Part shown: one piece after another, positions 13,343 through 52,300 of the stretch
Layout of the letters: the number at the start of each line of letters is the position of its first letter
Numbering within the stretch: position 1 is the stretch's first letter
NCBI RefSeq assembly: GCF_037975245.1
Contig: NC_092575.1
Location: 2,175,001 to 2,239,000 of the forward strand
Direction: 5' to 3'
Length of the DNA: 64,000 bases
From: Apostichopus japonicus
Lineage: Eukaryota; Echinodermata; Holothuroidea; Aspidochirotida; Stichopodidae
Made by a program: the position numbers and the translations under genes
Notes under the pieces: generated by a model
What the model was told of the DNA's origin: nothing
Seen by the model: only the letters and a program-made list of their open reading frames with translations
The model's database searches: none

Positions 13343-13752
13343 TATGGCAAGCCATGTGGGTCAAACACTGCATAATATATCCGCGTATTAATTTATCTGT
13401 GCAACCGATGTGAATGCTCCGCATTCGAATACGAAGTGCTAAGCACACAAGTAATACACGTCCGTGTCGCGGGCATATGGCAAGCCGTTTTAACATTTAC
13501 CTCGCAATTCGACTTAAGTCGAATACATTTCACTTAAGTGGAGTTCAATTTCACTTAAGCAGAATACTATTTAACTTAAGTGGAATTCTATTTCACTTAA
13601 GTGGAATACCATTCCACTTAAGCTTAATTGTATTTTACTTAAGCTGAATTCATCAACTTGTCACTGCATTTTACTTAAGCTAAATTCTATTTCACTTAAG
13701 TGGAATTGCATTCCACTTAAGTGGAATTGTATTCCACTTAAGTGGAAATGCA
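13343..13752. repeat. CTTAAG-core array, 21-bp period, with TATGGCAAGCC end
   Basis: From 13508 to 13745 the palindrome CTTAAG (usually within CACTTAAGTGGAAT) recurs eleven times; almost all intervals are 21 bp, one is 20 and one 36. The array is preceded at 13476 by TATGGCAAGCCGTTTTA, identical for 17 bp to the left end of the GATATC element at 17262. A second TATGGCAAGCCA occurs at 13343. I do not see a matching right end after 13752, so this may be a one-ended or decayed relative of that element. Confidence 0.7.
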
Positions 13753-15050
13753 TTTTGCCCACCGAAGAAAACGAAACTTGTATTTTTCTTAGAAGACATT
13801 CGATTGGATTGTACTTGGTCCGATTGAAGATAGTGACCAATGAAAATGAATTTAACATCAATTTAAAGTTAAGAAAAATCCTTTCCAAAACCGTTTGAAC
13901 TAAATTTGTCAGATCACCGGAAATGGCAGTTCCAGAGCTTGAGAATGACCAACCCGATGTACACTTTGGCCTGAGAACCAAGTATTTCCCACTAGTTTTT
14001 TTTTTTGGTCAATTTGTTTTAGTGCTCTGACTATACGTCAGTCTGCCCTCTATCGTCATGATCATTGATGTTGCATATGTTAGTTTCACTGTCCAGTCGC
14101 TTACAACAACTTCATTGCATTTCGATTAACTCATTTTAATCAAACCCCTTATTTTGTAGCAGAAATACGACCGCATTCTATAGCTTTACGGATCCAGTGT
14201 TATATATACCTTGTCGATTTTCTGACGACTTTTCTTTACCAGCTGCGATCCACGTTTAGTTGCATAGTACATATAGCATCCAACATTGTCAAGTATATTG
14301 TCCACCGACACACTTCTCCCCCAAAAAAATCAAAATATGCAGACATTCTGGAATAAATCTGGTTTCCCATCTGGTTTTACTCTTCAATTTTGCATGACTG
14401 AATGAATGAATATCAGTGCTTTGTAGTATAAGGCAGAGGAAGGGCTGTTTCTGTCCACTCCCGTACGTACATTGTTGACATTAACATCCGGGTAGTAGCA
14501 CCACAGGCATATCTCTCTCTATATATATAACACACGCTAGACTGCAGAATAGAGATCATTCCAACTACACTGTCACAAAATAATCTGAAAACACTAGGAA
14601 TAAAGGAAGGTATTTGTTCACAACCTGTAGATTCAGAAACATTAATTCAATTAACATAAACTTAGGAGAAATCCAGGATTCATAAAAGAATGAAACGTTT
14701 TTGAAGTTAAAAACATGTCATCACTTCCTCAATTACATAGCTAGAAAACTGCAGTGTATCGCGGTAATTACACGTTCTTTAGTATCGATACATACATACC
14801 CTATACTAACTGATGTGCTTTTACCTGGTGTACAATAGAACCAGTAACCGTGACGGAAATAGGTTCAAAGATCGTTGTAGGGTATAGTGTGAGTGCTATC
14901 AACGATTGACGAATATAGGCTGCAGTTATTTGAAAATTGTTAAAGGACTTAACACAACTGATGCATTAAAATGTATTAAGCCCAGCTCGGGAGAACGAAT
15001 GCAAATAACTCACACACATGTTCCACATGACGTAAAGTTTACGTTTAGAA
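13753..15050. other. intergenic, nothing recognised
   Basis: AT-rich sequence with a short TA microsatellite near 14520. No splice-consistent exon and no domain found. Confidence 0.35.
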
Positions 15051-15058
15051 TGAATTCG

Positions 15059-15325
15059 TGAACAATTAAACATTTTGCAGAAAAATGAGTTGACGAAAAT
15101 TTTTATTTGTTTACTTCATTCTAAATGCTCAATTGGACAGAAACATGTTGAATTGACGAGATACGATAAGTTTTCAATTAACAATTTTGCAGAAAATTGT
15201 TCAATTGCTCAGTTGGAATGAAGTGAACAATTGAACATTTTGCAGAAAAATGTTGGATTGACGAGATACGATAAGTTGTCAATTGAACATTTTGCAGAAA
15301 ATTGTCCAATTGCCCAGTTAGAGCA
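15059..15325. repeat. repeat cluster around CAATTG / TTTTGCAGAAAA
   Basis: The block CAATTGAACATTTTGCAGAA occurs with variants four times, followed by A/T-rich arms that pair back (AATTGTTCAATTG). A larger unit containing ATTGACGAGATACGATAAGT occurs twice (about 15157 and 15254). It looks like a third palindrome-based array, but without the strict 21-bp spacing. Confidence 0.5.
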
Positions 15326-16234
15326 ATTATTGAGCAACCCAACAGTTCCGGATCTTTAATAAGATATTATCTTGTTATCTAAACAATTTACTGAAAAATG
15401 TCAACTTATGGGGCAAAGTTTTTCTGATGTTGAAGTAACTTTGAAGCTTCCGTAGATTAGCATTTAGCGTTTTATGAATAGAGACAATACATATCCTGAA
15501 TTTATTGAAGCTAGCGAACAGGGTCAATTAACCCAATATATGAATAGGCCTAGGTAATTTAAATTTCCGACTGTCGCACTCCAATTTTCCAACTATCGTC
15601 AGCTTTACCAAGTTTGGGGTGAGATCCCCACACCCCTCTCTAGCGACGTCCCTGTGCCCACGTGAGTACTTTCAATTGACAGTTGCTTATTTCATAACAT
15701 TTTATATACTGTCATGTTAAACCAATCATCCTTTTACCTTTCATTAATCATGTACGGTACGTTTTATTTCAGTGTAGCGAATCCAACGAAGACCGGAAAG
15801 TAACTCGTTCCTTATCGACCGCCGCTCCGTTTGCTAAACCTTCTGGTTGATGTCCTTTTAATATTTGATCGTTGGGTCACGTGCGGAGTGCGAGGGATAT
15901 CACATGATGGGATGGGGATCAGGATACGAGAGTTCGGTGAAAGCTGGATAGGCATTCATTCGTCATTGATTCCCTCTGATCATTAACGTTCACAAATCAT
16001 CGATTATTCTTCACATTTAAAATATACTTCGATGTAAATATTACATAGGCCTAACGGTTATTTTTGTAAATGATGACCACATTCAAATCAACATCCACAT
16101 TCAAAGAATTGAAAAGAGAACTTACATACTGAATGAAAGATTGCTTCCTTGTTACGTTAATGTATGGTGTGATCGAAAATCAGATAAAAGCCAATACCCA
16201 GATTCGTTTTACTCACCAAATTTATATCTCCGTC

Positions 16235-16318
16235 TAACTGTGTATTATTTAAAGTTGATGACGTCACAATTTTCTCTTGACAGCCGCTCGTGACGTTGCT
16301 CGATCCTCTGATACCATC
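16235..16318 (+). promoter_or_regulatory. CRE-containing leader of the small + strand gene
   Basis: A perfect palindromic cAMP-response-type element TGACGTCA lies at 16258-16265, about 55 bp before the first ATG. A second TGACGTT and an acceptor-like cttgacag follow. The region may be a promoter with a short leader; a CACGTG E-box lies further up near 15877. Confidence 0.3.
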
Positions 16319-19300
16319 ATGGCCGCCAAGAAAATACATCAAGATCTAAAAGAACTCAAGACCTCATGTCTTGATACGAGAGAAAAGTTACATTTTCAGG
16401 TGAGGGTAAAGGTCTAATAATTATTTTAATTGGCATTGATGATGTCACGTGATATATTGTGTGTAAACTGGATTTAGAATATTTGCAATCAAGAGATCAC
16501 TTTTCGATATGATAGGTATTCGCTGATGAAACATTTATTGTGGACACCGAAGAACAACTGGTAGAGAGAACTGACTCAACCCTCAAAACAGGTAAGGAGA
16601 AATAAATTCCTATCCATTACTATTTAATACAAGGTTACGATGAAAACTTTTCTAGGTATTTTCACCTTGGAAGGTTTACCAAAGGCCTTTTATGAATTCG
16701 ATTAAATTTTTGTAATATTTCGTCGCCAACTCACATTTCCATCAAATAACAAATCAGGTGAAAACTTCAAATAAAATTCGACTTCATTATTTGACATGAA
16801 CGTAAGTCATGTTATTTAACCAGATTTTATGCGATGTTAGTTCGAATAACATCTCTTATGTCAAACCAAGTAAAAAAAAAAACACTGTTTCCAAGACCTA
16901 ATGAGAAAATCAATTTTAGCAAATGAAAGTTAAAAAAAAGTAACATAGGATCTCGTTATAAAAAGGATTAACACATATTCCCATCAATGGCAACTGTTTT
17001 CACGATAATTTGTTTCTTCTAATAGCCCGGCAATTAGCAAGATCGGAAGTGATGCTTTGTCGCCCTCACATTCCATTTGTCGTTAAAATGGGACGTAACA
17101 AGTGAACTTGGTCAGCAAATTTGAGTAGATGACATCTGACTCCCCCGTTCTTCATTCTGGAGAAACAAAAATATATTAAGTTGTTATTTTAAAATCTGAA
17201 CATGCGCATTTGTCAATCTGTCCTTTCTTGTCTTTTCAATAGCTGCTTGTGACCTTGCTCGTATGGCAAGCCGTTTTACTTTTTATTCAATATTTAATGA
17301 TATCTTTAATTATTTGATGATATCATTAAATCAATTGTTGATATCAAGAATTCGAATTGTTGATATCATTAAATCAATTAATGATATCATTAATTCAGTT
17401 CATTTCTTGATATCAATAATTCATTTAATGATATCATTAAATGAATTAGTGATATCAAGAAATGATTTAAAGATATCTTTAAATGTATTTGTGATATGTA
17501 CATATCACTAATTCGAATTGGTGATATGTACATATCACTAATTCGATTTAATGATATCAACAAATATGACGTCATATTTACTGATATCACTAATTCGAAT
17601 TGGTGATATGTACATATCACTAATTCGAGTTACTGATATCATGAAATATGACGTCATATTTACTGATATCACTAATTCGAATTAATGATATGTACATATC
17701 ACTAATTCGATTTAATGATATAAACAATTATGACGTACATATCAAGAATTCGGCCATATTTAATGATATCATTAAATATGGCTGCGATATGTCTGGTTAT
17801 ACGGCGTAGTCTCAGTAACTCATCCGTACATAGGCCTAATGGAACTAAGCTGGTGGTAGTTGGTATGGGTCTAGTGCAGTGCAGTATACATTACATTAGT
17901 TATACGGTAGGCTCAATACGTAAAACTACTCTTAATATGGCGGGGATTGAAGCTCAACCAGTTCTAGACAGAATATAATGCACTAACCGCACTGCACTGT
18001 ACTTCCCGCCACATAATCCCAGGCGCTCAAACTGAGAGCGTAATTGATGATATCATTAAATATGGCCGAATTCGTGATATGTACGTCATATTTGATGATA
18101 TCATTAATTGGAATTTATGATATCAAAAATTCTAATTAATGATATCATTAAATATGGCCGAATTCGTGATATGTACGTCATATTTGATGATATCATTAAC
18201 TGGAATTTATGATATCAAAAATTCGAATTAATGATATCATTAAATATGGCCAAATTCGTGATATGTACGCCATATTTGATGATATCAATAATTGGAATTT
18301 ATGATATCATTAAATATGGCCGAATTCGTGATATGTACGTCATACTTTTTGATATCATTAATTTAAATACAGATATCTGAAATTGCATTTATGATATCTT
18401 AAATTGAATTATTGATATCTATAATAGTTCATCTATTTTAAGATATCACAAATTCAATTCTTGATATCAGAAAGTTTAATTATGATATCATCAAATAAAA
18501 TAATGATATCAATAATTTCCTTGCACCAATTAATGATATCATCAAATATGACGTACATATCATTAAAACAATTTCAGATATCATGAAATAATTCATGATA
18601 TCATGAAATAATTGTTGATATCATTAAATAATTGTTGATATCAATAAATACTGAATAAAAAATAAAATGGCTTGCCATATGCTCGCGTGTTTCAAAACAT
18701 GCTTGCTGCCCACTATTCATCACAATCACGACTCAGAAACACATGAAGGATATTGCGCCTGCTGGAATGGAAGTTGTGGTTTACAGACCTCGCCACTTCT
18801 GCCATGGATTGACCCTTCATCACAAAGGCGAGTTAATTCCTGCCAAGTTAAATAGGTTTTGCATAACTTGACTGACGTCATCAAATTGTAAGTGATCTAT
18901 GCATAATCTTAGAAGGCATATCAAGTGATGGATTTATTGTAAAATAAATTAATTGTTGTTACAATAAATTAATAATATTACTTCTTCCTTACTTTTTTTC
19001 ATAGTTGTATGTGACGTCGCCCGGAAGAAAGGGGAAAGCAGAAGTGGAAAAAAAAGCTTAAGAAAAAAAAGGTGATATGTAGCTAGCGCCCTCTATTTCA
19101 GATGTAGGATAGCTAGGCAGAGGTTATGGTTGAAAAGAGGACAACATTATGTAAGTCTATATAGTATATAGGTTTATTATTCATATTAAATTTTATTGTA
19201 TCATTCTTGAGCAATAATAAAGAGATATGCAAATCGGTGCTAATACTGAGAAACAGAAATTATTTAATTTCTTGATTTTGAATAAATTACAGCCACAACA

Positions 19301-23311: not shown

Positions 23312-29254
<5,943 letters not shown>

Positions 29255-29838: not shown

Positions 29839-31766
29839 AGGGAGGTGGAGTAGGGTACAGTAATCGCTATAGCAACCATGGAACTTCAACTTGCACCTTC
29901 AATGGTCTTTAGAATTAACTGTAAATATGCTAGCAAGACAAACAATGGTCACTCATGCTCCAACTTCCAAGTTCAACGTACACCACTCTAGTAAAATTTC
30001 TTTTCCCCACTTTGTAATTAAATCTTCCAATTTAAAACTCCACCCTCCCTTTAAAGCCTAACAGGTACTAACCCTTGCGGGAGCCAACATTATGGGGTAT
30101 ATTGCAAATGCAATTGGCTTGATGCCAATACAATATAGTCAAGTGTGCAAAAGTGCAAAACATTACACAACATTTTGGCTTTTGCTTGCCATGGAGGCAA
30201 AGTGTGTCACGTAAAGGTAATATATGCCTATGCCAAAAGCGTAGCCTATTTTAAACTGTAGTGTTAGGCTAACACTAGTAACATTATAACACTTACTTTC
30301 GATACTGACTTCTAACAATAACAGAGTACATCGAGGGTTGCAAAGCACAGTCCAAATGTTCCCATAGTCGTATGTACAGTACCAACCTACCTGAACTTCG
30401 AAAGACCAAAGACAAATGGCGTAGAACGTGCGATGATTCAGGATTTACATTCTTAAACCGTTTCCCGTCAAACGTATTTTCTTGGTATCCATTTCGTGAA
30501 CTTGAGGGTATCCGGAAATCGTCCAAATGTCACATTGCGCCTGTACCCTCACTTTATCGGTGTACTTTGTAGTAGGGCAGCCGTGTGTACTTTTGGTTAG
30601 GGTTAACCTTGCCGTTTGCCTGAAAATGCACCTGTTAATCGGAAAGGTGCCGAATTATTTACATGAAAATGACAGATGAAGATCAGGGAGCGGAATCACG
30701 TATATCTTTAGAGAGCGGGGGAGAGGGAGGGTGGGAGGGGGGGCTGGTATCTGATTTAGATAGTACGATCTCGAGTTCAAAGAAAATTATTATTAATATT
30801 ATTATGTGCGGGTCACCCAGTTACGGTGGAACACATGTTTCGTGATACTAAACAAAAAATTCATTCCATTTTGACTAGGAAATCAGTGCGCAGTATTTTT
30901 GCCCAATGAAATTTCTATGGACCGTTTTAAGGGTAATTACTGTAATTTAAAAACATAACCTCGAGATTTAACATGGATGGTTCGTTGGGAACCAAAGTTG
31001 CTACATGTTCATCGTCAAACAATTACCATCTTCTGGAAATGTTTAGTTTATTTCGACACTTCGAATTATATCTCAAACTTTACATCATCACATATTTTCG
31101 ATGATATATTCTCGAATTTTCGTGTCAAAATCCAAGTTAACTCCTTTCACTCATTTTCCTCGAAATTAAGAGGGATAGTTGAAGTTTGGCCTTTTTGTAT
31201 CAGTGGAAAACAGAAATTTTGAGCAATTTATTTCAACTTTCCACAACATTCGCCAAGTAACAACATTCACTCTCAAAATTTCGACTTTGTGAATAACAAA
31301 TTAGGAGTACATCCACAGTTTATTTGATTACAATTACAAACTTTCTGACATTTTCTACAAGAAAGTTCCTTTTCTGGGTATTTCGACTGTTTATGTGAAA
31401 TATGTCGAACGTGAAATATGTCGAACGTGGAACCTTCGACCGCGTTTATCTTGAATTTTACAATCATATGTTTTTTTATTGGGTTTTATATCCTGGCAAT
31501 TGTGACTTCATTGTAGGGCCATTGATCATATTGCTGTATTGGCCCCAATATGTTATATTCAAATATAGTCACCTAATTAGGTCAAATTTCTTATACTGTA
31601 TTTATTCGAGGAACGTTTCATCACTGGGACATTCAGTCATCTTATTGTGCGTTCCTTAAAAATTCTGCGAAAAATATGGAGAGTAAAGACCTCCAGCGGA
31701 AAGCACTTTTCAAAACTTCTAGCAATTATAGCATGCTATAATTTTGGGCCAAGTATACTGACTACC
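29839..31766. other. upstream region of GUCD1, no further gene found
   Basis: A GTAGGT donor on the minus strand near 30390 may end a GUCD1 5'UTR exon. Sequence around 30300-30600 has modestly higher GC and could hold the promoter. The rest is AT-rich with no exon I can support. Confidence 0.35.
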
Positions 31767-46353: not shown

Positions 46354-49300
46354 TTACGATTTGGCGTCCCAATGAGCTTTACGGTGAACAGCTGTTATGT
46401 GTATAAACTCTTCGTGACTCGCGTATAGAGACAGGTCAGAGCTTATGTCGGCCCAGTGGGCATCCTGAGCATCGTCTCCGGCTGTTAAATTGAACTTTCC
46501 GACGCTCTTGCCTTTCTCATCGTGAAAATTGACCGCGATAGTTTCCATCCAAGCATTGTCAGTGTTCCTTGGATCGTCCACATAACCTCTGTATACCTAA
46601 GGAACAATAAAACAAACAAACAAATCCAAATCACTGATTCATAGAATAACATAAAAAAGAATTCTAATTCCTACCCCCCCCCCCCCCTCCCATAGATGCT
46701 ATCAAGTTATTTTCCTTCTCTCATAAAAAGGTACCAACAGCTTAATTCAGAACAGTTAGATAATTTAACTAGGTTAACTTGGTGTTGGTGAAACAACTTT
46801 GACCAACAAGGCGGGCCTCCCCGAGTACATTTTATTCTGTTTTCTGAAAAAAGCATTGGAGGGGTACTAGGTTAATTGTTGTCATCTTTTTTCAAAAGTA
46901 ACAAAAATTCTTGCGGTATTAATAAAATCTGTAAAATATATTAAAAACAAAAAAGAGGATTCTTGTTACTATATGGGTATTCCTAGGGAAAACTGGATTT
47001 GGCTTACTTGATGGAATTTAGCCGACCGTCAATAAGGTGCATGTCATAATAGCAATGAAACTCAAATAGGTTAGGAAAACCACTCATAAGGATACAAGGA
47101 GAAACAGGGAAGGGTATGCCCCTCTGTAATCCTTTATAACACCCACAAGAAAAGTTACTGGGCTTTCCTTCAGCAGGCCGTTGGCCTCTTTCCATCTGTA
47201 CTGTTCACCTTACCTCATAACCATGTTTGAATAGTGCAGCAATCTCCTTCTCTGTGGATTTTCTCTCTTTATCTGGTATGTCTATGCTGTTAAGTGCTTC
47301 CTCTCCAAACTCTCTCTTCAGGGTGACTGACACTCTTTCTCCTGCGTCTACCATACCCTGTAGACGAGAGACGATCAAACTGAAACTCGTAAGAGAAGGC
47401 CAATATGTAATACAGAAAGTCAAGTAACAGGCAGTTCATTCTGCATAGAAGAACAGTCAAGGTCATAGAAGTACAGTCAAGTGCATAGAAATAAAGTCAA
47501 GTGTATAGTCAAGGGCATAGAAATACAGTCAAGTGCATAGAAATATAGTCAAGGGCAAAGAAATATAGTCAAGTGCATAGAAATATAGTGAAGTGCATAT
47601 AGTACAGTCAAGTGCATAGAAATATAGTCAAGGGCATAGAAATAAAGTCAAGTGCATAGAAATATAATCAAGGGCATAGAAATATATTCAAGGGCATAGT
47701 AATATAGTCAAGTGCATAGAAATATAGTGAAGTGGATATAGTACAGTCAAGTGCATATAAGAACAATCAAGTGCATTGAAATACAATCAAGTACATAGAA
47801 GTACAGTACAGTATATATAAGTACAGTACAGTGCATAGAAATATAGTCAAGGGCATAGAATTACAGTCAAGTGCATAGAAGTACAGTCAAGAACATGAAG
47901 TTTGCAATCAAAATAGTACCTTTTTTAGTCTCATACCTAAAAAAGACTTGGCATTTGAGTCAAATCATCCCCTACTATATAGTATAGCCACTACTGGAAC
48001 AGTCCATAATCAGCAATACTGTACAACACATGTAGGGAAGTACAAGGGCGGATTAAAGGGGGGAGGGGGCTGGGAGTAAAAACTGGTTGATAGGGCAGGG
48101 TGGGCGAAAAGAGGGGCGGGCCAGGCTGCCCATGTCAAACAGCAAAGCTAAGGCACTGGGCCACCTGCCCTTTATATTGTGTATAACATTCACAAAGAAT
48201 AGGCAGTGATATGATCGCATCATTACAACTACACTAGTTAAAGTAGGTCACATAATAAATGCAATTGGTATTCAATCCGGACTCAAGCTTTTTTTCACGG
48301 GACGAAACATTTGGGGGGGGGGGCTTGCGTCCCTGGGACGCAAACCTTTTTGTTTAAATGTTTACTCACCCCTGGTATAGCCCATACTCCTGAATCTTTC
48401 CGCATTATGGATACAAATTGTAGCACTGGTTTTCCTGAGGTAGGATCTAAAATCTGTTTACCCTTCTTGTCTCGCTTCCATCTGAAAGGGACGAAAAAAT
48501 GAAGAGGAACTAACGCATCAAAGTATTTTCACAGTTGACATGGATCAATAAGTTATGTTGACCTGCCCATGGTTGACTCACCACACACCATCCCAAAAAT
48601 GCTCTTGCCACCTTCCAAACACAGTGCTTAGAGAATAGGGTCAAGACAGGTATATGATGAGCTCAACAGGTTTCTCCTACGCAAAGTCACCTTGTTTGGA
48701 ATAGTTTGTAGGTGTACTTTCAAGTCCCAAAAAGTATAGGTTAGGCTGTGCAGGGTTAAAAAATCTCACGTTATTTTGTGCATTGGTGGTATCCCTATCA
48801 TGTTTGTATATGTATAGTATCTTAGAAAGGTTTGCACAGTGAACAGCATATAAAAAAAAATTTAAAATTTAAATACCGTTCTAAATACAGAACATTTTTA
48901 ACTTGTGTAATAGACTTGTTGACAATTATATTTTAACAGCTATCAGACGTAAATAAACGCAGTTTACTGTTATTATACAGTACTTTACCTCTGACTCAAG
49001 TGTAACTTTTCATGACATATATGGCAAAACTTGGTCACCACTGCAAAGAATCTACTGTAAGTTTATTCCATGAACAAACACATTCTTTGTAACTTAGAAA
49101 TTTAATGAGAATTAAGCAATTTACCATAAAATCCAGATCACAACTGTACAACAAGTACAATTCACAAAAAGACATAATGTTAGATAGTAAAAAATGTGTT
49201 CTTTTGTTAAAGTATCTTGGAAATAACCTCTAAATCAAGTGTGGAATGTGACCATACGACGTCCATTGTCTCGTACACCTGCGAGCATACTTCGTACATC

Positions 49301-52300
49301 ATGTGACTGCATTTTACACCATGTGACTATGCATTTTTTACCCATGTAACTGCATTGCACACAATGTTACTATGCATTTTACACCATGTGACTATGCATT
49401 TTACACCACGTGACTGCATTGCACACCACGTGAATATGCATTGCACACAATGTTACTATGCATTTTACACCGTGTGACTATGCATTTTACACCACGTGAC
49501 TGCATTGCACACAACCTGAATATGCATTGTACACCATGTTACTATGCATTTCACACAATGTCACAAAGTGCATGTGTGAAAGTCTCACCTAGTGACAATG
49601 GGATCAGCTGCATGATTCGGTCCCCATTTCCCTAGAAGACCTCTTCCATTCATTCCTGTTCGGCCGTTTGGATTCCTATCAAAATGGAAAAAAAAATTAC
49701 ATAGTATATCATCTGAGTGGTAGATTTGGAAGAAAGAGAAATTGGGCGTTCTCCTAAAGATTGTGGTGGGCGGGTCAGTCATGTAGCTCAAAGATAAATT
49801 GGGCGGTCTTCGAGGATGTGGTGGGCGGGGCAGTCATGTAGCTTAAAGGTACAGATTGGAATGTGCATATGTATGAAGAGTAGGAGACGGGTAGAGATTG
49901 GAATAAAGTAGACTGCATACAACGCACGTAAAAAATATTCAATCCTCCCAAAAACTCTGGATGTATCAGAGTTTACAGACTTACTGGTTGGCTGAGAATA
50001 ACGGGAAAACTATTAATAGGCTTGATGTATTGGAATTTACAGTACAGGTACAGAACTAGAGCATGCATAGTCTATAAAAAGTGAACAGAAGATATCTTCA
50101 GTTATAACAGGAGACCGATGTAACTTAGAGCAGGCATCAATTTTCACTTTACCTTGGAATTCCACCTGGCGTTGTATACTTTGAACAGTGACTTTTCCTA
50201 TTCACTTTCCCGTCAATCAAATTAAACTTGAATTTCTTGCTGTCATTTTCCCTGTTGAATAAGCCCAAGAAGAAAATAAAGGGTAAACAAAACTATTAGT
50301 TTATTGTCTAGTACTATGAGTTGACTATAAGATAAACAAGGTATAATTGTGAAGGTTACCTCTTAGGGTTACTTCTAAGAAGGTACAAAATATGAATAGT
50401 ATATAGTTTTTGTTTTGTAGCCTGTTCTTGAACAAAGGTGTACAGAACTGTGCTTTTCCATTCTCATTTCAAATATTGACACAAACATGTTTTATACCTG
50501 GTTAGGCTGGTTTACATCATGTACAGTACAGTATATATTCTTAAACTTAATACTACCGGTTAGAACAGGCAACGGTAGACGATTATTAGTCCTGATGTGA
50601 AAAGCTCCAATGAAAAACGGATAGGTTGCCTTTCAATGAACAATAAATACTTTCTAGAAAAATGAAATGTTTTTACACTTTTGCTAATGGTACAATGTGC
50701 TATAGATACACTGTACACTATGGTACATATTATACATAGCTCTGCCTACTGTTACAGGGCGCAGTCATTTTGGCAAGTGAGAGAGCAGCTGGGATTTTCT
50801 TACAAAAGTTATCTCTGGATTGGCGCTATTGATTACAGCTCGCAACAAACATTAATGTTTGATCAAACATTATCTCTGGATCGGCACTATTGATTACAGC
50901 TCGCAACAAACATTAATGTTTGATCAAACATTATCTCTGGATCGGCACTATTGATTACAGCTCGCAACAAACATTAATGTTTGATCAAACATCTGGAGGT
51001 CTCTGTCCTCTAGCACATTAATCAAACTTATAAGTTTGAGAATGATGGCACAAGTGTGAAAACAAGTACAATTCCCCTATTACCACCCCTCCCTCACCCC
51101 TGTGGTACGGGTACCAGTACCCTCCTCCCCACCCATGGGCTCTAAGCATGGATACAAGTACTGCAGGTAATTTGGACTATATACAGTAGAGTGGTATCCA
51201 CACTAGACCCCATGTGAATGAGTACCAACTGGTACAAATCTATGAGATTGAGTATTAGCAGTACAAATCTATGAGATGAGTAATTCTGGCAGTACAAATC
51301 TATGAGATTGAATACTGGCAGTACAAATCTATGAGATTGAGTACCAGTACAATCCATGACATTGAGTACAAGCATCGGTAATGTAACTATGCTAGAATAA
51401 GAGTACCAGGATGGGCTCACATTAAACCGACAGTAAGTCAGAAATCAGAAAGGAAAAATGGGCAATTGATAGCATTCCTGGTAACTGTGTCTAATGTGTG
51501 TTCAATTGCACTGTGTGCTTAATGCACACATACTGTACTGTATACACATACTGTATACAGTATCAATCTGAACAACAGAATTCAATGACTGACCGAGGAG
51601 GGCAAATTTGAATACTCTAAATATACTGTAGTGCAGTAAGTACACTCATACAGTATGTAAATAATATGTATGTGTTATATGCAAATACAGTATTGTATCG
51701 TTGAGACTCCTTCACTATATATTTGTCAGTTGTCACAGGCACTGTTTGGTGCAACAAAAAAGCTTTTCTTTAACACAATTTAGGGAACAGTACAATATAA
51801 CTTAACATCACATTGATAAACAGTTAAATATTTGACTTACGATGTTATATCGACGTCTGCCCATACAGGACCAGCCTTCACGGACGGTGCTGTGTATTCC
51901 ACGGGGGAATAATCCTTCCACTCTGCTGACCAATCCACCTTATCGTCAGGAACGGTCGTGCGGTTCACAGTGGACCCAGGATATGGAGATGAACGGGCCT
52001 TGGTATGGACCCCTGTCGTGGTAGCCATCTCGGACAGGTGTCGAATGTGGCCAAAGTAGATGAGCCCGCTGAAGAGCCTGGAAATATAATCAAAACACAT
52101 CCTGTTTACTAGCAGGATTGCTACAGATTGTATTAAAGGAAAGTGAATGTTTGCTTGAAGTACTATATATAGCACACTGTGTACAGTACTTAGTAGCATC
52201 CACCTTCCACACACAGCATTCTGTATACAGTTGTACAGTAGGCATACTGTAGTAGTACAAGTCATATGATGTGCACAAGGTCTATTGCGAAACTAAATTG

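Follow-up and report, generated by a model that had tools for sequence, protein, structure and literature searches.

The window analysed here, a 64,000-nucleotide stretch of the genome of the holothuroid Apostichopus japonicus (contig NC_092575.1, positions 2,175,001 to 2,239,000), contains two features rich in 6-bp palindromes, one built on CTTAAG and the other on GATATC, which begin with the same terminal sequence. Judging by their ends and target duplications, the two features most likely represent two families of cut-and-paste DNA transposons of the IS3EU type, and the arrays are most likely family-specific binding sites for the transposases. As a whole, the explanation that we consider probable joins a conserved cleavage tip to a landing strip of palindromes, peculiar to each family, on which the family's own transposase would settle.

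Shared ends and register of the palindromes

The sequence-only reading of this DNA had reported 17 identical terminal bases in both features, and the terminal inverted repeat (TIR) was indeed the same in each (13476-13492 and 17262-17278), its first base at 13476 lying 3 bp downstream of the start, 13473, given in that reading. Both had been described as arrays; the GATATC unit proved to be a complete element, whereas the CTTAAG unit comprises just a single end, 97.6-99.6% identical over 282-286 terminal bp to the copies at loci L003, L011 and L016, and a scan of the window for ends, with one mismatch allowed, found no partner for it. The first two of these loci (C1:11.14 Mb and C2:18.66 Mb) hold clusters of CTTAAG elements, apparently nested in one another. 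The GATATC element matched the right end of a 17.6-kb autonomous copy of family F at 89.6% over 511 bp, and its exon 1 remnant starts in agreement with exon 1 at locus L029; on the strength of this match and of the retained ATG and 12 codons, it is an internal-deletion derivative of family F.

A palindrome about every 21 bp, as had been claimed for both features, was confirmed for the CTTAAG array (spacings of 20 bp once, 21 bp eight times and 36 bp once) and in part for the GATATC element, where 21 of the 35 spacings between 36 exact cores measured 20-22 bp. Regular steps prevail close to both ends of that element; in the irregular part, 17472-18351, 22-bp steps take turns with longer ones, 30-100 bp in length and in one case 284 bp, and the palindromes GATATGTACATATC and TATGACGTCATA are also present. 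Over the whole window GATATC occurred 51 times against 14.8 expected (0/100 shuffles as high) and CTTAAG 28 times against 18.6; since one of 100 shuffles reached the latter count, it is the clustering of CTTAAG and not its total that stands out. Perfect palindromes with arms of at least 5 bases numbered 8 in the CTTAAG array (mean 0.37, maximum 3 in 300 mononucleotide shuffles) and 29 in the GATATC element (mean 3.5, maximum 9).

Genome-wide counts refer to the host genome (672 Mb, 35 contigs), in which the 17-bp end TATGGCAAGCCRTTTTA was present in 630 exact copies (308 forward and 322 reverse) and its reversed control in none. A 6-bp target duplication was exact in 16 of 20 element pairs, the misses being L015 with two mismatches, L009 and L010 with one mismatch each, and L005, where five bases (GTGAC) match if the register is shifted; seven 'nested' pairs were excluded from this count because they had been chosen for matching flanks, and the duplication was exact in both the C and F full-length copies in addition. 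Targets carried G at position 2 in 20 of 23 cases and C at position 5 in 18, seven of the 23 having been picked for matching flanks. The shortest of the pairs examined, L015 with 204 bp, has hardly anything besides its TIRs and a GATATC array; the longest measures 22.7 kb, and both element ends read TATGG..CCATA. The two ends of the C-type copy L013 are 98% identical over 131 bp; A- and F-type copies diverge more between their ends beyond the first 17 bp. The pairs of 9.1 kb (L019) and 9.5 kb (L013) were rejected as autonomous copies, no transposase open reading frame (ORF) being seen in their translations read by eye. Nested within the GATATC element of L013 (1407-6949) are retroelement-like ORFs, reverse-transcriptase-like by eye.

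Published passages on the IS3EU (IS3EU/GingerRoot) superfamily list TA..TA termini, TAYGG..CCRTA ends and TIRs longer than 30 bp in fungal families, and 6-bp target duplications (PMC10045372, PMC12730594). The elements described here have the same TA..TA, TAYGG..CCRTA ends and 6-bp duplications, and their DDE core may be related to the IS3/IS481 integrase-like cores of that superfamily. The target duplication of hAT transposons is usually 8 bp. A hAT6 group with a 6-bp duplication also exists, so that duplication length alone leaves hAT possible; a hAT transposase domain was absent from the catalytic exon of family A, for which Pfam (E ≤0.05) lists PF24764 and rve only.

In most ends the first palindrome was found at a fixed distance from the tip. 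Among the 308 forward ends, a CTTAAG core lay 12-40 bp from the TIR in 160 and a GATATC core in 106; forward-strand counts have one row per end, and reverse counts, which list an end twice if two cores are in range, were left unused. Among the matches listed, the last base of the first core was either 43 or 63 for 69 of the 71 distinct ends with CTTAAG and for 70 of the 74 with GATATC. A register sample of 29 loci plus the window gave 62 exact ends with at least 100 bp of sequence, and the first core stood at 43 or 63 in 58 of them and at 64 in one. The refuting condition named in the sequence-only reading, that other copies of the end lack such arrays, was thus for the most part decided in favour of that reading. 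When the 88 bases after the TIR were shuffled, a core fell at 38-43 in 4 of 12,400 trials. Steps of 20-22 bp made up 454 of 564 CTTAAG steps and 374 of 481 GATATC steps (steps ≤60 bp), the means of the 19-23 bp steps being 20.84 and 20.67 bp, and the remaining gaps measured 26-38 and 46-52 bp. A preference of these gaps for half turns (26-27, 36-38, 46-48) was considered and discarded, as the copies are not independent and gaps of 30, 33 and 52 bp do not fit. On C1-C3, all 34 adjacent convergent pairs with core-bearing ends have matching array classes at their two ends, which fits co-divergence of array and transposase; descent alone would yield the same result.

Transposase genes and sister families

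A search of the genome with PF24764 gave at least 143 matches, 16 of which were opened as loci. The autonomous copy with a transposase that the sequence-only reading had proposed to seek was found in three families, A, C and F, as full-length copies (Table 1) whose multi-exon DDE transposases contain PF24764 catalytic cores. By predicted exon borders, the gene runs from an exon 1 without known domain through a helix-turn-helix exon and a linker exon to the catalytic exon. In family A the latter matched PF24764 'Integrase core domain' (E 3.1e-75) and PF00665 rve (E 0.042, below cut-off), and the spacing D-39-D-34-E was read in A and F; exon 1 of F and one A ORF gave no Pfam family at E 0.05. 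The A copy (L021-L023) also carries a HECT ubiquitin-ligase-like ORF (PF00632, E 1.4e-11), and the C copy has a HECT-like ORF that shares 38.5% identity with the former over 353 aa.

A TIR together with an array was recognised at 11 of the 16 opened loci (A twice, C twice, F, K, D, E and three of G), K, D, E and G being known from one end only. At L025, L031, L034, L035 and L038 the combination of TIR and tandem array was not recognised, and their ends may lie beyond the fetched stretch; the ORF of L035 is preceded by a T-rich array of 19-bp units, with the TIR not found. An unrooted FastTree tree of linker and catalytic segments covered the 13 loci, out of 16, of sufficient length; in it A, K, F and C grouped together (support 0.94), with K+F+C (0.91) and F+C (0.96) inside; the other groups were D+E (0.99), G1+G3 (0.98) and H1+H2 (1.0). 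D and E also form a pair with 22- and 42-bp repeats. The distance between the tip and the centre of the first core is 40 bp in five families (A, C, F, K and E) and 39 bp in D, so that the six families with a 39-40 bp register carry four cores (CTTAAG, GATATC, ACGCGT and TGCnGACA).

Table 1 Window features, full-length copies and array families
Feature	Location	Strand	Basis or remark
Fragment of another IS3EU-like end (TATGGCAAGCCATGTGGG...)	13343..13394	+	TIR start shared; L028 copies similar
TIR TATGGCAAGCCGTTTTA of CTTAAG (family A) element	13476..13492	+	Genome-wide count
Truncated family A end, TIR and array	13476..13760	+	Match to other copies
11 exact CTTAAG cores	13513..13742		11/11 units with exact core
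Target-site duplication TGCTCG, left copy	17256..17261		
Complete non-autonomous family F element, 1418 bp	17262..18679		
Left TIR TATGGCAAGCCGTTTTA	17262..17278	+	Same 17 bp as TIR 13476-13492
Left GATATC array	17299..17477		Mostly 20-22 bp steps, one 26
Middle array	17490..17782		82-bp higher-order repeat mixing GATATC, GATATGTACATATC and TATGACGTCATA palindromes
Transposase exon 1 remnant	17937..17978	+	ATG and 12 codons (M-A-G-I-E-A-Q-P-V-L-D-R-I), then TAA
Right GATATC array	18049..18642		Internal 92-bp higher-order repeat; 20-21 bp steps toward end
Right TIR (TATGGCAAGCCATTTTA on minus strand)	18663..18679	-	Complement of TIR, A variant
Target-site duplication TGCTCG, right copy	18680..18685		
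Family A full-length copy, 22,667 bp	C1:12260970-12283636		CTTAAG arrays; duplication CGGCCG
Family C full-length copy, 20,435 bp	C17:6325041-6345475		GATATC arrays; duplication CTCCCG
Family F full-length copy, 17,568 bp	C12:2785093-2802660		GATATC and GTAC-centred palindromes; duplication CGCGCG
Unit types among array families			CTTAAG, TGATATCA, AGATATCT
Family K	L037		TIR TATGGAAAGCCATTTTA; 21-bp units ATTTCA-GATATC-TGAAAT
Family D	L027		TATGGTTGGCC; four ACGCGT sites spaced 19/23/19 bp
Family E	L028		TATGGTTGGCC; 22-bp units containing TGCnGACA
Families G1, G3, G4	L030, L032, L033		TATGGAACGCC or TATGGAACGCG; 18-bp units

Alignment of the sites of A, C, F and K outward from the dyad, the sites having been collected by exact core, revealed a common plan of a 3-bp core half, a mostly fixed base, variable bases and then an arm. 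The fourth base is T in A (82%) and K (96%), and A in C (98%) and F (88%); AA stands at +7/+8 in 93-100% of half-sites and is followed by W; position +10 is T in C, F and K and in about half of the A sites, while positions 5, 6 and 11 vary. Anchoring on the arms instead, we found the exact core in 11/11 CTTAAG units and 8/8 left GATATC units of the window, 20/21 units of C and 13/15 of K; L023 (18/26) was excluded, as the walk overran the end of the array. The earlier statement that cores and spacers are otherwise unrelated was thus too strong, since the half-sites share AA at +7/+8. The CTTAAG and GATATC arrays look like variants of one skeleton in which the core was replaced and the arms were partly kept, and K, with A-like arms and the C/F core, is by its units a bridge between both types. 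In the G families a TTGTTGYCT-like half is kept and the other half changed (AAACTTACG, CGATCGAGT, CTTTAATG), perhaps a core replacement in a second clade.

One genome thus harbours four families with 21-bp units (A, C, F and K), the E/D pair and an 18-bp G clade, all of a single superfamily. The proposal that ends are conserved while internal sites are replaced survives insofar as the arrays differ within one superfamily; the divergence lies between separate families and not inside one, since each has its own transposase, with 42-51% identity between their catalytic exons. These natural variants differ in the core and not in tip or register, which makes co-change of transposase and subterminal sites, and the separation of sister families, directly testable, because three families have full-length copies and DNA-binding exons in hand.

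Candidate binding proteins and alternative readings

A helix-turn-helix exon matched at all 11 loci with TIR and array (E 7e-47 to 0.0014), and it opens with GRPK or GRPR in A, C, F and K, GSPK in E and GAPK in D. Given such an exon in each transposase gene, binding of the individual arrays by different dimers is plausible. Against Pfam HTH_7 (cut-off 23.8 bits), A and C scored 24.5; D, E, B and G fit other helix-turn-helix models better. A single-sequence search of PDB returned nothing useful (best E 0.78), and a five-sequence profile matched Hin (1hcr, E 0.021) with an alignment spanning the GRP arm; stronger hits of the profile were 2lvs (8.8e-7, a CRISPR repeat binding protein by title) and 8vd6 (4.5e-6, named CAP REPEAT). 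The folds closest to an AlphaFold2 model were a phage immunity repressor (Z 6.8), SETMAR (6.3), Mos1 (6.0), Tn3 resolvase (5.8) and Hin (4.8).

In the mechanism that we propose, the 17-bp TIR would be the cleavage and joining end, kept constant by the conserved DDE catalytic domain acting there. A dimer of the family's transposase would bind the 20-bp palindrome of each unit through its Hin/resolvase-like helix-turn-helix and GRPK/GRPR arm, the first dimer always at a distance of 40 bp from the cut, with others following every 20-21 bp. Such a chain could form a nucleoprotein filament, which would attract transposase, bring the ends together and set the catalytic domain at the tip, and the array next to exon 1 may also allow autoregulation. 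Sister families would come to share an end and differ in their arrays because the sites and the DNA-binding part co-diverge while the tip stays fixed.

Several observations weigh against this explanation. Ends without a core were few in the register sample (58/62 in register), yet 5 of 24 ends on contig C1 had neither core in range, and three of the 62 exact ends, the right one of L002 and the left ones of L009 and L010, had no core within 105 bp; the target duplication of L002 is exact all the same, and L009 and L010, 98.6% identical including flanks, count as one event. Many copies stem from few founders, so the counts are not independent. The steps of other copies are mostly 20-22 bp, as had been expected of them; the related G clade has 18-bp units and a different register, and H1 (L034) has a TIR-like end without tandem array. 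The register of E, and partly that of D, is less independent because the core was picked after the repeat had been seen. Sites had been placed on one face of the DNA, which holds for neighbours, about two turns apart; over whole arrays the alignment breaks through step drift and the gaps of 26-38 and 46-52 bp, and strict one-face phasing is ruled out by the step lengths. HTH_7 scores fell below the cut-off in F (15.6) and K (22.8), the model reached a predicted local distance difference test (pLDDT) score of 69, which is weak, and all its Z scores were below 8. Finally, helix-turn-helix similarity agrees with the fourth half-site base and not with the 6-bp core: between families the closest pair is A-K by identity (49%) and C-F by score, and K has the C/F core. 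Because A and K are closest by identity while K has GATATC, the arms may be what the helix-turn-helix exon reads, and recognition of the 6-bp core may fall to something else.

A further idea, which we offer tentatively and hold to be possible though somewhat doubtful, is that the array acts as an identity key: within one IS3EU lineage, a fixed chassis (the same cleavage tip, a first dimer 40 bp away, others at intervals of two turns and AA-bearing arms) would accept interchangeable cores, and a family would split when core and DNA-binding part both change. If so, sister families with identical ends in one nucleus would not cross-mobilise.

The arrays could instead be promoters or enhancers, their phasing explained by cooperative binding of a host transcription factor, with the transposase using the TIR only. 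One array does directly adjoin the transposase exon 1 ORF in A, C and F, and F contains TGACGTCA, which resembles a CREB site; arrays, however, are also present at the gene-distal end of the three full-length copies, short copies (one of 204 bp) have them at either end, the register is counted from the DNA tip, and the cores differ among sister families, as a host factor's site should not. We regard this reading as unlikely.

Quite unlikely, in our judgement, is a second element-encoded protein that binds the array as TNPA binds the subterminal repeats of Spm/En. Its precedent lies in CACTA elements (Spm/En, soybean Tgm), for which a published passage gives conserved TIRs and subterminal repeats that diverge between subfamilies of one genome (PMC2613891). 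As described there, CACTA elements work similarly to those studied here, with conserved TIRs, divergent subterminal motifs and an element-encoded DNA-binding protein; they differ in their CACTA ends, three-base duplication and separate binding protein, and the present elements, ending in TATGG and duplicating 6 bp, are not members of CACTA/EnSpm. The further ORFs of the A and C copies, one of them HECT-like, and a 6-bp core that does not track helix-turn-helix similarity would suit a second protein; the HECT ORF of A, on the other hand, had no match when searched against the F copy, and a helix-turn-helix exon lies within the transposase gene at 11/11 array-bearing loci. Tandem repeat growth inside transposon ends is known elsewhere, and the 42-, 82- and 92-bp higher-order repeats indicate tandem duplication, but that the arrays are passive, functionless minisatellite-like expansions is highly improbable, given exact cores beside varying half-site positions, which duplication alone would not give, and a register and dyad symmetry that recur across families with different cores. 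Formation of cruciforms or hairpins was considered as another possible role of the palindromes.

The proposed landing strips for a family's own transposase can also be compared with Hermes, a hAT element whose multimeric transposase places several DNA-binding domains on subterminal repeats (PMC10368747). From the published passage, the likeness lies in the subterminal repeats, with one quasi-palindromic pair near the tip; Hermes differs in its short scattered repeats, its BED zinc finger and its two palindromic pairs only, at the left end, and the present elements are not members. With Hin recombinase and gamma-delta resolvase they share the helix-turn-helix with a preceding GRP[RK] arm, the HTH_7 match above cut-off in A and C, and the weak 1hcr profile match, a likeness limited to the DNA-binding domain, as the catalytic core here is of the DDE type and not that of a serine recombinase. 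The IS3EU passages cited above do not mention extended arrays of phased palindromes, a register fixed at 40 bp or array classes that differ from one sister family to another, and no description of such arrays in IS3EU was found in titles and abstract starts of open-licence PubMed Central articles, an earlier description being possible. As far as these searches reach, extended arrays of phased palindromes whose register is fixed and whose cores can be replaced are new for IS3EU within that literature.

Other repeats and sequences

The fragment just upstream of the CTTAAG end (13343-13394) was 94.2% identical to one copy in L028 over 52 bp and 94.6% to another copy there over 56 bp; its L028 relatives have nearby 22-bp repeats of the ATTCGAATTAATACGCG type. 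Elsewhere in the window, 23609-24006 holds 23.5 copies of a 17-bp unit, GTGGATCCCTCGAGGGC, with 98% matches and the palindrome CCCTCGAGGG inside the unit. An array of 22-bp period, TACACCATGTGACTATGCATTT, with CACGTG and ATGCAT palindromes occupies 49295-49561, and a TIR scan of the window found no end beside it. Additional tandem arrays lie at 47442-47891 and 15138-15312, with units of 20 bp and 52 bp.

COX1 fragments with broken frames were noticed at C29:14745-16086 and 30842-31219, perhaps a nuclear copy of mitochondrial DNA. The COX1 of contig C35 resembles an echinoderm protein and has AAA at positions usually occupied by Asn (STNHKDIG) and ATA at positions usually occupied by Ile, which makes an echinoderm the most likely host; AAA encodes Asn and ATA encodes Ile in the echinoderm and flatworm mitochondrial code.

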